A program made the position numbers and the translations under genes. From Pseudomonadaceae bacterium (GTDB lineage Bacteria; Pseudomonadota; Gammaproteobacteria; Pseudomonadales; Pseudomonadaceae): DNA of 40,345 nt. Below, in pieces: positions 7,625 to 35,309 of this stretch; position 1 is the stretch's first letter; every line of letters begins with the position of its first letter. The stretch spans positions 1 through 40,345 of the forward strand of contig JAIETJ010000057.1 in assembly GCA_019745275.1 (NCBI GenBank), read 5' to 3'. Under the pieces are notes generated by a model. The model did not search any database, was not told the DNA's origin, and was given only the letters and a program-made list of their open reading frames with translations.

Positions 7625-8884
7625 GTGGTTGCCATCGTGCTCAAACGTATTGCCGTCGCCGACCTGCGCCTAGGAATGTATATCAACGAGTTCTGTGGCT
7701 CGTGGATGGAGCATCCTTTCTTTAGGGCTAAATTTGTCGTGGATAACGGCAAAGATTTACAGAGGATTGTTGATAGTGGTGTCGATGAAGTCTGGATCGA
7801 CACCAGTAAGGGCCTCGATGTAGCGCTCGGTCAGCCAGCCGCCAGCGAGGCCGAGGTGGCTGCGCAGGTGGAAGCCAGCTTGCTAGCGGTGGTCAGCGAG
7901 CCAGTGATGGCACGCGTGGCGCTGGATGAAGAGGTGCGCCGCGCGCACAAGCTGTGTGGCGCTGCCAAGCAGGCCGTGGTGGCGATGTTCAGTGAAGCGC
8001 GGATGGGCAATGCCATAGATGCCGCGCAGGTAACTGAGTTAGTGGAAGATATCTCCAGCTCAGTATTGCGCAATCCCAACGCCTTAATCAGTTTGGCCCG
8101 GCTAAAACACGCCGACGAGTACACCTATATGCACTCGGTGGCAGTGTGCGCGCTAATGATCGCACTGGCACGCCAGCTGGGCTTGGCTGAGGCGCAAGTG
8201 CGCGAAGCCGGGATGGCCGGTTTGCTGCACGATATCGGCAAAATGATGATTCCCGATGCCATTTTGAATAAACCCGGTAAGTTAACCGATGCTGAGTTCG
8301 GTACGGTACGCACGCACCCTGAGGCGGGTAACAGCATTTTGCTCGGCAGCGAGAACATCAGCGCGATGGTCCTCGACGTATGCTTGCATCACCACGAAAA
8401 AGTCGATGGCAGCGGTTATCCGCACCGGTTAAAAGGCGATGAAATCAGCCTGTTTGCCAAAATGGGTGCGGTTTGCGATGTGTATGACGCGATTACCTCG
8501 GATCGCCCCTATAAACGTGGCTGGGACCCGGCCGAGTCAATCCGCAAGATGGCCGAGTGGTGCAAAGGCCATTTCGATGAGGCGGTGTTCAAGGCCTTCG
8601 TTAAGTCGGTGGGTATTTACCCCACCGGCTCCTTGGTGCGGCTGGAAAGTGGTCGGCTCGGGGTGGTTATGGATCAGCATGAAACGTCCCTGCTGACGCC
8701 GCGGGTTAAGATTTTTTTCTCGGCCAAGGCGAAAACTCCGTTGCCTCAGCAAGTTATCGACCTGGCCAAGTTGGTCGGTCGCGAAAAAATTATCGGTCGG
8801 GAGTCACCAGAAGATTGGAACTTCCCCAATCTCGACGAGCTCTGGTCGGAACTGCCTAACCGCAAAGGCTCGCATTTCGATTGA
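7625..8884 (+). CDS. HD-GYP c-di-GMP phosphodiesterase with N-terminal DUF3391 (copy 1)
   Basis: A 419-residue protein. The N-terminal 70 residues (L-K-R-I...L-G-M-Y-I, then W-I-D-T) are the DUF3391 module common in Pseudomonas HD-GYP proteins. The HD-GYP domain spans about 150-350 with H170, H202-D203 in H-D-I-G-K, H231, the H-H-H-E-K block at 255-259, D-G-S-G-Y-P at 261-266, and the downstream C-D-V-Y-D-A. All metal-ligand positions I can align are present, so it should hydrolyse c-di-GMP. The given start is GTG 7625; a GTG at 7637 aligns with the start of the downstream paralogue and may be the true one. The organisation resembles P. aeruginosa PA4108. It is followed after 92 bases by a clear paralogue. 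Confidence 0.88.
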   Translation: MVAIVLKRIAVADLRLGMYINEFCGSWMEHPFFRAKFVVDNGKDLQRIVDSGVDEVWIDTSKGLDVALGQPAASEAEVAAQVEASLLAVVSEPVMARVALDEEVRRAHKLCGAAKQAVVAMFSEARMGNAIDAAQVTELVEDISSSVLRNPNALISLARLKHADEYTYMHSVAVCALMIALARQLGLAEAQVREAGMAGLLHDIGKMMIPDAILNKPGKLTDAEFGTVRTHPEAGNSILLGSENISAMVLDVCLHHHEKVDGSGYPHRLKGDEISLFAKMGAVCDVYDAITSDRPYKRGWDPAESIRKMAEWCKGHFDEAVFKAFVKSVGIYPTGSLVRLESGRLGVVMDQHETSLLTPRVKIFFSAKAKTPLPQQVIDLAKLVGREKIIGRESPEDWNFPNLDELWSELPNRKGSHFD

Positions 8885-8976: not shown

Positions 8977-10215
8977 GTGTTAAAACGAATTCCGGTAACT
9001 GAGGCCTGTTTGGGCATGTACGTGCATGAGTTATGTGGCTCATGGATGGATCATTCGTTTTGGAAAAATAAATTCCTGCTCGACAGCGACAAAGACCTGC
9101 AGCGCCTGCAAGGTAGTGCCATTCGTGAACTGTGGATTGATACCCGTAAGGGCGTCGATGTGCCAGGTGGCGATAGCCACGCCACCGTCGAGGCGGCCAC
9201 CGATGCGCGGTTGTTGGCGGCCGAAGCCGAAGCCCCAGCCAAGGCGCGTCCGCAATTGGCCGATGAAATGGGCCTCGCACTCAAACTCAGCGTGCGCAGC
9301 AAAGAACGCTTAGTTAGCTTGTTTGCCGGCATGCGCAGTGGTGAGCCGATTGATAGCGTGCAGCTAAATGCCCAAGTCGATGAGATTAATCTGTCGCTGC
9401 AACGCCACCCGCATGCGCTGATTAGTTTGGCCCGGCTGCGCTCGGCCGATGAGTACCAATACCTGCACGCCCTGACGGTGTCGGCGCTGATGCTGGCGCT
9501 GGCCCAGCAGTTGGGCATGAACGAGGCTCAAGTCAGTGAGGCGGGGGTGGCCGGGTTGCTGCATGACATCGGTGAGGCGCTGATGCCGACTGAACTGCTG
9601 AATTGTCCGGGTAAACTCAGCCGGATCGACACCGCCTTGCTGCGCGATCACCCAGCGTTGGGCGCTGAGACCTTGGCTAAGCAAGGGCTCAGTCCAGCGT
9701 TGGTGGATGTGTGTTTGCATCATCACGAAAAACCCGACGGCAGCGGCTACCCTGATCGCTTAGTGGGCGAGCAGATCAGCTTATTGGCGCGCATGTGCGC
9801 GGTCTGCGATGTGTATGACGCGCTGACCTCCGATCGTCCTTATCAAAAAGGCCTAGACCCGGCTGAGGCCATTCGTAAAATGGCCGAGTGGTGCCCGGCG
9901 CAGTTCGACGACAAGGTGTTTCGCGCCTTTGTTAAAACCATCGGAATTTACCCGACCGGCGCCTTGGTGCGACTGGAAAGTGGCAAACTCGGGGTGGTGC
10001 TGGAGCAGAGTGAGACATCATTGCTGACGCCCAAGGTTAAGGTGTTTTTCTCGGCCAAATCCAAAGCGCCGATTGAGCAGGACATTCTCGACCTCAGCAA
10101 ACTGGTTGGCCGCGAGCGTATTGTCGGCCGCGAACCGCTGGACGACTGGGGCTTTCGCAACCTCGAAGAACTCTGGTCGGGCGAGCGCAAGGGCCGCGCC
10201 ACGCTGTTTGGTTGA
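8977..10215 (+). CDS. HD-GYP protein with N-terminal DUF3391 (copy 2, variant HDIGE motif)
   Basis: A 412-residue paralogue of the preceding gene, with long identical stretches across the C-terminal 300 residues (for example S-D-R-P-Y and the I-R-K-M-A-E-W-C block). The start is GTG 8977, giving M-L-K-R-I. H196-D197 of the HD pair, the later H-H-H-E-K, D-G-S-G-Y-P and C-D-V-Y-D-A motifs are kept. However, the conserved lysine of H-D-I-G-K is glutamate (codon GAG at 9574-9576). That lysine lies next to the metal centre and the phosphate of the substrate in the family, so activity could be altered or lost while binding remains. The linker between DUF3391 and HD (about 65-110) has diverged most. 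Tandem duplication followed by divergence is the likely origin. Confidence 0.88.
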   Translation: MLKRIPVTEACLGMYVHELCGSWMDHSFWKNKFLLDSDKDLQRLQGSAIRELWIDTRKGVDVPGGDSHATVEAATDARLLAAEAEAPAKARPQLADEMGLALKLSVRSKERLVSLFAGMRSGEPIDSVQLNAQVDEINLSLQRHPHALISLARLRSADEYQYLHALTVSALMLALAQQLGMNEAQVSEAGVAGLLHDIGEALMPTELLNCPGKLSRIDTALLRDHPALGAETLAKQGLSPALVDVCLHHHEKPDGSGYPDRLVGEQISLLARMCAVCDVYDALTSDRPYQKGLDPAEAIRKMAEWCPAQFDDKVFRAFVKTIGIYPTGALVRLESGKLGVVLEQSETSLLTPKVKVFFSAKSKAPIEQDILDLSKLVGRERIVGREPLDDWGFRNLEELWSGERKGRATLFG

Positions 10216-31878: not shown

Positions 31879-33657
31879 ATGGCTGATTACAAAGCGCCCC
31901 TGCGCGATATGCGCTTCGTCCTCAATGAGGTTTTTGAGGTGGCTAAGCTGTGGGCTGAGTTGCCAGCGATTGCCGAAGTGGTGGATGAAGAGACCGCTGC
32001 GGCCATTCTCGAAGAAGCCGGTAAGGTGACTGCCGGTGTGATCGCCCCGCTGAATCGCAGCGGCGACGAAGAAGGCTGCGGCTGGACTGACGGTGTGGTT
32101 AACACTCCGGCCGGCTTCCCTGCCGCCTATAAGGCTTACTCCGAAGGCGGCTGGGTTGGTGTTGGTGGTGATCCGCAGTTCGGCGGCATGGGCATGCCCA
32201 AGGCTATCTCGGCGCAAGTCGAAGAAATGGTCAACTCGGCCAACCTGTCGTTCGGCCTGTATCCAATGCTAACCGCCGGCGCTTGCTTGTCGATCAATGC
32301 GCACGCCAGCGAAGAGCTCAAAGAAGCCTATCTGCCGAACATGTATTCGGGCGCTTGGGCTGGCTCCATGTGTCTAACCGAGCCGCACGCCGGCACCGAC
32401 CTTGGGATTATTCGCACCAAGGCCGAGCCACAGGCTGACGGCAGCTACAGCATCAGCGGCACCAAGATTTTCATCACTGGCGGCGAGCACGACCTTAGCG
32501 AAAACATCATTCACCTGGTGTTGGCCAAACTGCCGGACGCCCCGGCGGGCCCGAAAGGTATCTCGTTGTTCCTGGTGCCGAAGTTTATGGTTAACGCCGA
32601 CGGTTCCTTGGGCGCGAAGAACAGCCTGTCGTGCGGTTCGATCGAACACAAAATGGGCATCAAGGCTTCGGCTACTTGCGTGATGAACTTTGACGGCGCC
32701 ATCGGTTACATCATCGATGCGCCGAACAAAGGCCTCAACGCCATGTTCACCATGATGAACTACGAGCGTTTGGGGGTGGGCGTGCAGGGTTTGGCATTGG
32801 GTGAGCGTTCCTACCAGAACGCCATCGAATACGCCCGTGACCGCATCCAGAGCCGTGCACCAACCGGTCCTGTGGCTAAAGACAAAGTCGCTGACCCGAT
32901 CATAGTGCACCCAGACGTGCGCCGTATGTTGTTGACCATGAAAGCCTTGAACGAAGGCGGTCGTGCGTTCTCCAGCTACGTGGCGATGCAACTCGACACT
33001 GCCAAGTTCAGTGAAGACGCCGCTACTCGTAAGCGTGCCGAAGAGTTGGTGGCCTTGCTAACGCCGGTAGCCAAAGCCTTCCTGACCGATATGGGTCTGG
33101 AAACCACCGTGCACGGCCAGCAGATTTTTGGCGGTCATGGCTTTATTCGTGAGTGGGGCCAAGAGCAGCTGATCCGCGATTGCCGTATTACCCAGATCTA
33201 CGAAGGCACCAACGGCATTCAATCGCTCGACTTAGTCGGCCGTAAAATCGTCGGCAATGGCGGCGCCATGTACACACTGTTCGCCGACGAAATTAAAACC
33301 TTCATCGGTAGCGCCGATGCTTCGCTGGCCGAGTTCGTTGAACCGCTTAAAGCGGCCATCAACAACCTCGACGAGCTGAGTGCTTGGCTGCTTAACAGCG
33401 CCAAAACCAACCCGAATGAAATCGGCGCGGCCTCGGTTGAGTACCTGCAAGTGTTCGGCTACACCGCCTACGCCTACATGTGGGCCCTGATGGCCCGCAC
33501 CGCGCTGGCCAAGCAAGAGCAAGACGAGTTCTACGTCAGCAAGCTCGGCACCGCACGCTTCTACTTCGCCCGCCTGTTGCCGCGCATTCACTCCCTGACC
33601 GCCTCGGTCAAGGCTGGCAGCGAGTCGCTGTACCTGCTGGATGCTGCGCAGTTCTAA
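31879..33657 (+). CDS. Acyl-CoA dehydrogenase, large form (second copy, FadE2-like)
   Basis: A 592-residue paralogue of the gene at 28444, starting M-A-D-Y-K-A-P-L-R-D-M with GAGAGG five bases upstream. It keeps M-C-L-T-E-P-H-A-G-T-D-L-G near 158, K-I-F-I-T-G-G-E-H near 196 and Y-E-G-T-N-G-I-Q-S-L-D near 440. Differences are concentrated in the N-terminal 100 and the substrate-channel segments, so the two enzymes probably differ in chain-length preference. In P. aeruginosa the corresponding gene is one of PA0507/PA0508; PA0508 (FadE2) is described as medium-chain, from memory. It ends just before a very strong bidirectional terminator. Confidence 0.92.
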   Translation: MADYKAPLRDMRFVLNEVFEVAKLWAELPAIAEVVDEETAAAILEEAGKVTAGVIAPLNRSGDEEGCGWTDGVVNTPAGFPAAYKAYSEGGWVGVGGDPQFGGMGMPKAISAQVEEMVNSANLSFGLYPMLTAGACLSINAHASEELKEAYLPNMYSGAWAGSMCLTEPHAGTDLGIIRTKAEPQADGSYSISGTKIFITGGEHDLSENIIHLVLAKLPDAPAGPKGISLFLVPKFMVNADGSLGAKNSLSCGSIEHKMGIKASATCVMNFDGAIGYIIDAPNKGLNAMFTMMNYERLGVGVQGLALGERSYQNAIEYARDRIQSRAPTGPVAKDKVADPIIVHPDVRRMLLTMKALNEGGRAFSSYVAMQLDTAKFSEDAATRKRAEELVALLTPVAKAFLTDMGLETTVHGQQIFGGHGFIREWGQEQLIRDCRITQIYEGTNGIQSLDLVGRKIVGNGGAMYTLFADEIKTFIGSADASLAEFVEPLKAAINNLDELSAWLLNSAKTNPNEIGAASVEYLQVFGYTAYAYMWALMARTALAKQEQDEFYVSKLGTARFYFARLLPRIHSLTASVKAGSESLYLLDAAQF

Positions 33658-33718: not shown

Positions 33719-34381
33719 TTACTCGTGAATCAGCAATTCTACCTGGCTCGGGTCGTCGATAAAGCGATTACGATTGCCTTGGGTGTTGAAGATTTTCTCG
33801 TTGCGAGCCTGTTCGGCGGCGTCGGGCGGGTCAAGTAGATGCCACTGCTTTAAGACCGATATTTGTCCATAGATTGGCAGGCCGTATTCGCTGTGCATGT
33901 AGAAAATGGCTCGAGCTACGTTACCTTTGGCTTCATCGCGCGGCTCAACTATCTGGTAGCTGGCCTTGAAGCTGCAGCCGATGTCGTCAAACTCGCTTTT
34001 AGCCACGCTGTCGAGTTTGCCGAATTGAGCGCCACGCCGGGCTAGTTCAACGCGGGTTAGTTCCGGGTAAAGATTGTGCAGGTCGGAGAGCATGTACAGG
34101 TATTGCGGATTGCTCTCTAAACACTGCTGGTCTGAGGTGCAGCGCAGGGCGCTTTTAATCTGTTTGCTGCTGTATACCAAGCTGGCCATCAGCGATTTGT
34201 GATTTTGGCTAAAGTCTTTGCCGCAATACAGCGAGGAGCCTCCGGTCGGATAGAGCTCGCTCCAGAATAAGGTACCGGTGCTGGCTTTAGGGTCTTTGAG
34301 TTGGCTTTGACCGCCGGCCAGCGCGCAGTTAGCAGTGCTGAGCGTGGTTAAGCAGATCAGGGCGATTACAACTGCACGCAT
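33719..34381 (-). CDS. Exported EndA/endonuclease I-family protein, probably degenerate
   Basis: A 220-residue protein with a signal peptide (hydrophobic 3-16, cleavage likely after A-L-A). The fold family is endonuclease I (EndA/NucM, PF04231): S-D-L-H-N-L-Y-P at 99-106, G-N-V-A-R-A-I-F-Y-M-H near 153-163, W-H-L-L-D-P-P-D near 180, and R-N-E-K-I-F-N-T-Q-G-N-R-N-R-F near 193-207. Cys53, 81, 87 and 136 could make disulfides. However, the expected catalytic E-H of the beta-beta-alpha-metal motif (E-H-V-[VY] in relatives) appears as S-L at 67-68 (S-L-V-Y-S), and the metal Asn of V-N-G-x-R seems to be Glu (R-V-E-L-A-R). It may have lost nuclease activity. AGGGG precedes the ATG. Confidence 0.75.
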   Translation of the reverse strand: MRAVVIALICLTTLSTANCALAGGQSQLKDPKASTGTLFWSELYPTGGSSLYCGKDFSQNHKSLMASLVYSSKQIKSALRCTSDQQCLESNPQYLYMLSDLHNLYPELTRVELARRGAQFGKLDSVAKSEFDDIGCSFKASYQIVEPRDEAKGNVARAIFYMHSEYGLPIYGQISVLKQWHLLDPPDAAEQARNEKIFNTQGNRNRFIDDPSQVELLIHE

Positions 34382-34491
34382 GTTATTACCCCTTTGACTC
34401 GCTGGGCGCGAGCCGTAAATTGTCGGACGATCCTAGGTTAACAAGACCTGCGTCACACAATAAAGCCGAGCGTTGGGTTGGTTGCGCAGTT

Positions 34492-34509
34492 TGTAGGCTT
34501 TGGCTTACA
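34492..34509 (+). promoter_or_regulatory. GacA upstream activating sequence of the sRNA
   Basis: TGTAGG-CTTTGG-CTTACA matches the GacA box TGTAAG-N6-CTTACA at 11 of 12 fixed positions. It lies 57-74 bases before the predicted sRNA start, the usual position for rsmX/Y/Z genes. Confidence 0.85.
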
Positions 34510-34530
34510 TGGTGTGCTGTCGATCGGCGC

Positions 34531-34559
34531 TTACCTGTGCCGTCCTGCAGCGCTATTCT
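34531..34559 (+). promoter_or_regulatory. Core promoter of the RsmY-type sRNA
   Basis: -10 TATTCT (34554-34559) with a weak -35 TTACCT (34531-34536), 17 bases apart. A poor -35 is expected for an activator-dependent promoter. Transcription should begin near 34566. Confidence 0.65.
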
Positions 34560-34565
34560 GTTACC

Positions 34566-34698
34566 CAAGGAAGCAAGGACGCCGCGCAGGATGCGCATGC
34601 AACAGGCAGGGATGCAGAGGAACTCCGCCAGGATGGTGGATTGATAATGGATGTCAGGACGCACAACAAAACCTCGCCTAGGCGGGGTTTTGTTTTTT
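34566..34698 (+). ncRNA. rsmY: RsmY-type sRNA that sequesters RsmA/CsrA
   Basis: A transcript of about 130 bases from 34566 would contain nine GGA motifs (at 34569, 34577, 34589, 34610, 34619, 34631, 34638, 34649 and 34657). At least one is in an ideal loop: GCGC-AGGAT-GCGC (34585-34597), and another in CCA-GGA-TGG (34628-34636). It is preceded by a GacA box and promoter and ends in an intrinsic terminator. This is the whole design of the RsmX/Y/Z family, which titrates the RNA-binding repressor RsmA under GacS/GacA control. The symbol rsmY is based on position: in P. aeruginosa rsmY lies after the nir-nor-dnr cluster that follows PA0508, and a glutamine amidotransferase gene lies shortly beyond. 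No coding frame here is credible. Confidence 0.88.
34665..34698 (+). terminator. Intrinsic terminator of the RsmY-type sRNA
   Basis: Bases 34665-34677 pair with 34682-34694 (13 bp, one G-U), with core CCTCGC/GCGGGG, followed by TTTT. It gives the 3' end of the sRNA. Confidence 0.9.
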
Positions 34699-34859
34699 CT
34701 GCGTCTGGTTAATGTACGGATGCTCGGCACTGCGTATTCATCTCTCGCTGCTGCCCTGTTGCTGTGCGTGCGGACAATTGGGCTGCGTCAGGCGTGAACT
34801 GGCTAAAGTTCGCGGCTGTACGGCCGACTAACTGCTTTATCTTGCTGGAGTGCAGGCTG

Positions 34860-35309
34860 ATGCAGGTTCAGGCCAGTGACTTTAATCAACGCTTGGTGGT
34901 GGCGATCAATCGGCAGGTTGCGGGTCATTCTGCGACGGCCTCTAAAGATCAAACGTTTGCTGGAATGCGCGTTGCGTTGTCGCCAGAAGGCTTGGGACGC
35001 GCTGCTCAAGAGCGGGATGCCGATATCGATGCCAGCGACTTGCCAGAGACGCTGAAATACCTGCTCAAGGCCATGCGTGATTTACGTGCGCAGTTGGCGG
35101 CCAAGGCGGATGAGTTGCAGGCGTTGTTGAGTGAAGCGGGGCTTAGTGACGAGCAACGCAAGGCGCAGTTAGATGTTCTGCGCCAAACGATGGCTTCACT
35201 TCAGGGTGCCTTAACGGCATTGGGCGCGCAGTTGGCAAAGGCGATGCAGACGATGTCGTTGAGCGATCAGCAGCGTTTGACGGTGGGTAAATTACTCTTG
35301 GCCAGATAG
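34860..35309 (+). CDS. Coiled-coil protein of unknown function
   Basis: The ATG at 34860 with GGAG upstream gives 149 residues; no signal peptide. Residues 1-45 are mixed polar, residues 45-60 include V-A-L-S-P-E-G-L-G-R-A-A, and residues 70-149 are strongly helical, with Ala/Leu/Gln heptads typical of a coiled coil (for example L-R-A-Q-L-A-A-K-A-D-E-L-Q-A-L-L). I do not recognise a family. It starts about 160 bases after the sRNA terminator on the same strand, so it probably has its own promoter. A longer frame from 34764 lacks a ribosome site. Confidence 0.6.
   Translation: MQVQASDFNQRLVVAINRQVAGHSATASKDQTFAGMRVALSPEGLGRAAQERDADIDASDLPETLKYLLKAMRDLRAQLAAKADELQALLSEAGLSDEQRKAQLDVLRQTMASLQGALTALGAQLAKAMQTMSLSDQQRLTVGKLLLAR

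Follow-up and report, generated by a model that had tools for sequence, protein, structure and literature searches.

A member of the RsmY small RNA family with both RNA ends altered in the draft genome of a Pseudomonas-type bacterium

Does a GGA-rich stretch lying behind a GacA-type box represent an rsmY gene and, if so, how should its unusual ends be read? The initial annotation had taken this locus for that of an RsmY-type small RNA and had named a search with Rfam covariance models as a means of checking it. In the window (the whole stretch of 40,345 bases analyzed here), the RsmY model (RF00195) matches positions 34575-34691 of the plus strand with 78.5 bits against a gathering score of 57 (E 4.4e-17). 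This alignment spans the whole model (positions 1-121), starts 8 nt downstream of the predicted transcript start and is the sole gathering-level Rfam match across the window; matches to the rnk leader, istR, the Leu leader and other Rfam families at 34624-34734 all fell below their gathering scores, overlapped the terminator and were rejected. The Rfam match, together with the sister RNAs, a GacA-type gene in the same genome and a conserved genomic site, supports the reading first given, and the locus is very probably the rsmY gene of a Pseudomonas-type bacterium, whose RNA is predicted from sequence to be activated by GacA and to bind RsmA/RsmE. What the sequence itself establishes is that the locus belongs to the family and has its arrangement of box, RNA, hairpins and terminator (Table 1). 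As in RsmY of Pseudomonas, there are a covariance model match, a GacA box at -75, a first hairpin of the form GCGC-AGGA-N-GCGC, a second GGA hairpin, a terminator and a position after an acyl-CoA dehydrogenase gene; unlike it, the copy in the window has an 8-nt 5' duplication that brings an extra GGA, and is devoid of the AGUCUG-type element. The locus thus adds one member to a known family and is ordinary except for both ends of the RNA.

Table 1. Features of the rsmY locus and its upstream neighbors (window coordinates)
Feature	Position	Strand	Remarks
Acyl-CoA dehydrogenase, conserved upstream neighbor of rsmY	31879-33657	+	Pfam; synteny
Endonuclease I family gene, divergent from rsmY	33719-34381	-	Pfam PF04231
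Predicted GacA box (upstream activating sequence), TGTAGGCTTTGGCTTACA	34492-34509	.	One mismatch to TGTAAG-N6-CTTACA
Possible weak -35, TTACCT	34531-34536	+	By-eye reading of sequence
-10 sequence, TATTCT	34554-34559	+	TAATCT or close variant common among listed relatives
Predicted RsmY transcript	34567-34698	+	About 125-132 nt, nine GGA; start from box/-10 geometry common to relatives; RF00195 match
8-nt near-tandem duplication, AAGGAAGC/AAGGACGC	34567-34582	+	5' end of RNA; one GGA added
Hairpin 1, GCGC-AGGAT-GCGC	34584-34596	+	Loop GGA; four pairs retained in 27/27 aligned RNAs
Hairpin 2, CCGCC-AGGAT-GGTGG	34625-34639	+	Loop GGA; double changes in three of five pairs; 93.3% of cells paired
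Site of missing AGUCUG-type element	34660-34668	+	Survey of 75 distinct RNAs; alignment A1
Intrinsic terminator	34665-34698	+	13-bp stem 34665-34677 / 34682-34694, then U run

In the promoter region, the GacA box, described at the outset as near-perfect, is the single match in the window at one mismatch or fewer, compared with a mean of 0.01 in 100 dinucleotide shuffles; when three mismatches are allowed, nine matches are found in the window versus 8.2 expected, so that only the tight match is informative. It begins 75 bases 5' of the inferred start at 34567. For the rsmY gene of P. aeruginosa, the available part of PMC4950607 places the GacA site at -75 and gives a consensus identical to TGTAAG-N6-CTTACA. 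The single change in the box, located in its left arm (TGTAGG), is also found at other rsmY genes (e.g., L058, L150, L159, L160, and L171). As already noticed in the initial annotation, the -10 sequence stands 17 bases after the weak candidate -35, a spacing read by eye.

With respect to the RNA itself, nine GGA motifs are found between the predicted start and 34698, one of them in the loop of hairpin 1, and both the count and the hairpin previously reported therefore hold. Three of 74 distinct RsmY RNAs exceed this total (10, 10, and 11) and three others have nine; the GGA count was consequently dropped as a distinguishing mark, since other RsmY RNAs reach nine or more. (The surveys of GGA motifs and of the AGUCUG element comprise 74 and 75 distinct RNAs, respectively, due to a slightly different terminator rule.) The GGA motifs in the two hairpin loops have a predicted unpaired probability of 0.99 or more. 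The fold of 34569-34698 has an energy of -45 kcal/mol (z -2.65), one of 200 shuffles being as good. On an alignment of 27 RNAs (A1), a four-helix structure pairs in 97.6% of cells and presents double changes in 6 of 20 pairs, values that 0 of 500 shuffles equaled in either case, although the test favors this structure because it was derived from the same alignment. For comparison, RsmY of P. brassicacearum carries 7 GGA motifs according to the accessible text of PMC7911923, where it is also proposed that more GGA motifs go with a longer half-life; if that proposal holds, nine motifs would favor the stability of the RsmY described here.

The first departure from the family is the duplication at the 5' end. 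Among 65 distinct promoter-to-hairpin stretches, the window alone has a box-to-hairpin distance of 92 bases, the remaining 64 ranging from 83 to 88, in a survey that admitted a slightly wider hairpin pattern than GCGC-AGGA-N-GCGC or its GAGC/GCTC form and boxes with two mismatches or fewer. Similarly, the box start precedes the Rfam start by 74-76 bases in 34 other RsmY loci and by 83 in the window. The best box-including match among the matches listed, from genome G261 (locus L150; 72% identity over query positions 12-217), has a box sequence identical to that of the window and the standard box-to-hairpin spacing of 84. A doubled GGA before the hairpin occurs in one of 398 family genomes (19 genera), namely the source genome, and in none of the 397 others, under a pattern that requires the exact hairpin and with genomes counted whether or not they carry such an RsmY; among 179 loci the same pattern gave three matches, every one of them the window's own DNA. 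In L026 a second GGA is also present ahead of hairpin 1, but without the extra spacing. The duplication brings the GGA total to nine, from eight without the duplicate. Counted from 34567, the box lies at -75 and the -10 at its usual distance; hence, with the start placed there on these sequence grounds, the 8-nt insertion most likely falls within the transcribed part. Descriptions of a 5' duplication in RsmY were absent from the literature searched, as judged by titles and the beginnings of abstracts. The spacing, element and GGA counts all demand hairpin and box patterns and thus leave more divergent RsmY genes outside.

The second departure concerns the 3' end. The 13-bp terminator stem and U run reported earlier were recovered as such, and an AGUCUG-type element precedes the terminator in 74 of 75 distinct RsmY RNAs, the window RNA being the sole exception. 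This element is a conserved trait of the present RNA set (exact hairpin GCGC-AGGA-N-GCGC or its GAGC/GCTC form, box with two mismatches or fewer) and not, as far as we know, a published criterion for RsmY; L025, which carries AGTCTAG, counts as lacking it only under a pattern demanding the following G. Alignment A1 shows a potential for pairing between the element and the 5' GGAC, and the altered ends suggest the idea that the 5'-most GGA and AGUCUG might form a closing helix limiting the access of RsmA. All four pairs between 5' GGAC and 3' GUCU are possible in 24 of the 27 aligned RNAs; three of the four are lost in the window RNA (one mismatch and two gaps), while a single pair is disrupted in each of two others, the second in L032 and the fourth in L073. 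Within this putative helix, AU replaces CG in L071, a double change, and U-G variants occur three times at the fourth pair, with three pairs hardly varying; the pairing probability predicted by single-sequence folding has a median of 0.09, and the Rfam structure of RsmY leaves the 5' end single-stranded. Because of the L032 and L073 breaks, the low probability, the little variation and the Rfam structure, the closing helix is not claimed. That most RsmY RNAs close their 5' GGA with the 3' AGUCUG, and that the lineage of the window has become open-ended and gained an extra single-stranded RsmA site, is a model that we consider doubtful.

In the 125-nt form of the window RNA, the two 5' GGA motifs have predicted mean unpaired probabilities of 0.97 and 0.65, and the hairpin-nearest 5' GGA across 75 RNAs has a median of 0.33 (range 0 to 0.93); in the 132-nt form the per-base values for the two motifs are 0.88-0.91 and 0.45-0.82. 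Together, the duplicated 5' GGA and the missing AGUCUG are predicted to render the two 5' GGA motifs more open, with an effect on binding capacity that would be modest at most. In RsmZ, a single-stranded GGA motif binds RsmE at 1.5-3.5 uM, and the best stem-loop does so at 16 nM (first copy) and 185 nM (second copy), as given in the part of PMC4005645 at hand. Since the single-stranded motif of RsmZ is weak compared with the stem-loop, one extra GGA would likely be, by analogy, a small tuning change. As regards the general role of the RNA, family resemblance suggests that phosphorylated GacA would bind the box at -75 and promote the synthesis of RsmY, whose GGA motifs would bind RsmA/RsmE dimers and sequester RsmA; the target mRNAs of the bound proteins would then likely be freed for translation. 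GacA activation, RsmA/RsmE binding and mRNA release are the elements of the Gac/Rsm system on which this scheme is modeled (available sections of PMC2375449 and PMC7366521).

Other components of the circuit are encoded in the source genome. RsmZ (RF00166) and RsmX (RF02144) belong to the same kind of GGA-rich, RsmA-binding RNAs (PMC2375449, as far as its accessible text goes) but constitute families distinct from RsmY, with their own loci elsewhere: one match for RsmZ at C7:8415-8546 (108.1 bits) and one for RsmX at C114:137-244 (77.1 bits). A gene for a GacA/UvrY-type regulator is located at C3:8103-8738 (311.9 bits versus a cut-off of 280), so the RNA arm of the Gac/Rsm circuit is now assigned in this genome, with RsmX, RsmY and RsmZ alongside GacA. 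The best GacA box in the 220 bases searched before the Rfam match lies 179 bases ahead of RsmZ, without mismatches. For RsmX (G000:C114, L066), a search of the same length gave a best box about 74 bases before the match with 3 mismatches, its right half intact and its left half eroded, the RsmZ box being perfect. RsmW of P. aeruginosa is another GGA-rich RNA that binds RsmA; on the other hand, it is apparently processed from a 3' UTR and lacks GacA activation, according to the portion of PMC4950607 consulted. A CsrA/RsmA gene was not found in the source assembly searched. CsrA is present in 56 of 57 genomes, the source genome being the exception, and in 53 of the 53 good-quality ones. The aspartate kinase gene that stands beside rsmA in G012 is likewise missing from the source assembly and was found in the other five of the six genomes searched. 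Because this adjoining gene is also missing and the assembly is a draft of 154 contigs with 86% completeness, the absence of CsrA/RsmA is likely an assembly gap, and a true loss of RsmA, which would leave RNA sponges without their protein, was rejected.

The changes at the two ends, absent from every relative examined, may reflect a tuning of binding or errors of the draft assembly. If both the duplicated 8-mer and the absence of AGUCUG were assembly or sequencing errors, the true RNA would be a standard RsmY; such a reading, which the fragmented draft and the restriction of either change to the source genome among those examined would favor, is nonetheless unlikely, given that one base distinguishes the two 8-mer copies and that the AGUCUG element is replaced by a different sequence and not merely deleted, neither being what simple read errors would typically produce. 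Very unlikely is the alternative of a decaying rsmY whose RNA, as the one-mismatch box, the changed ends and the low score would then indicate, is produced or acts only weakly while RsmX and RsmZ carry its function. Its RsmY bit score is the lowest among the 35 genomes over the cut-off, an element kept in nearly all RsmY RNAs is lost, and both sister RNAs occur in the same genome; however, the box, the -10, the two GGA-loop hairpins and the terminator are all there, and the one-mismatch box is shared by the other rsmY genes mentioned above. Finally, that the GGA-rich stretch is part of a coding region or the leader of the endonuclease I gene, and not an RNA gene, is hardly credible, for although an ORF of 114 aa on the opposite strand (34386-34730) overlaps it, the covariance model match, the terminator and the position and structure conserved in relatives oppose this interpretation.

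The identification as rsmY is also in line with the genomic position. The upstream acyl-CoA dehydrogenase, which we take to be PA0508-like, is found within the 1.5-kb flank of rsmY in 27 of the 30 loci of the first comparison set. Among 80 named loci found via the dehydrogenase (the best 80 of 590 confirmed loci), the dehydrogenase-rsmY arrangement is present in 36, in 27 directly and in nine across an endonuclease I gene; one of these nine, L091, has about 2 kb more in between. The arrangement was undetected in the other 44 of these best 80, which include L075, L108 and L113, whose contigs end just past the dehydrogenase; L079, with a hairpin motif 3 kb downstream for which no box was found, was left uncounted. 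Downstream of the corresponding dehydrogenase gene in P. aeruginosa PA7 (L126) lie nir-type genes, comprising a NirJ match in a partial ORF (493.0 bits, just under the cut-off of 515.45), a uroporphyrinogen-III methyltransferase above its cut-off and another protein with weak cytochrome-c matches; the 3.5-kb flank examined stops short of rsmY. The initial annotation had assigned the locus to the rsmY position, on the ground that rsmY of P. aeruginosa lies beyond the nir-nor-dnr cluster after PA0508. The conserved dehydrogenase site and the nir-type genes in PA7 agree with this, although nir, nor and dnr genes were not seen among the annotated ORFs of the window (fewer than half of the 81 listed). 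Since in PA7 the dehydrogenase is followed by nir-type genes, the proposed placement is right in substance.

Some minor observations concern the surroundings of the gene. The stretch that separates endonuclease I from the GacA box contains, at 34440-34455, the sequence AACAAGACCTGCGTCA, which is exact in L088, L149 and L150 and has two mismatches or fewer in L071 and L073, which makes 6 of 96 distinct rsmY upstream stretches, window included. In all six loci endonuclease I is divergent from rsmY, but further loci with endonuclease I, L077 among them, are without AACAAGACCTGCGTCA; this sequence may serve to control the endonuclease gene. Just 3' of rsmY, the ORF at 34764-35309 has a product of 181 aa whose only match (coiled-coil, myosin tail) is weak and falls below the cut-off, and for which the compared loci yielded no relative (tblastn, 1e-5). 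Elsewhere in the window, 7625-8884 and 8977-10215 encode adjacent proteins of the same architecture (DUF3391 plus HD domain), an apparent tandem gene pair.
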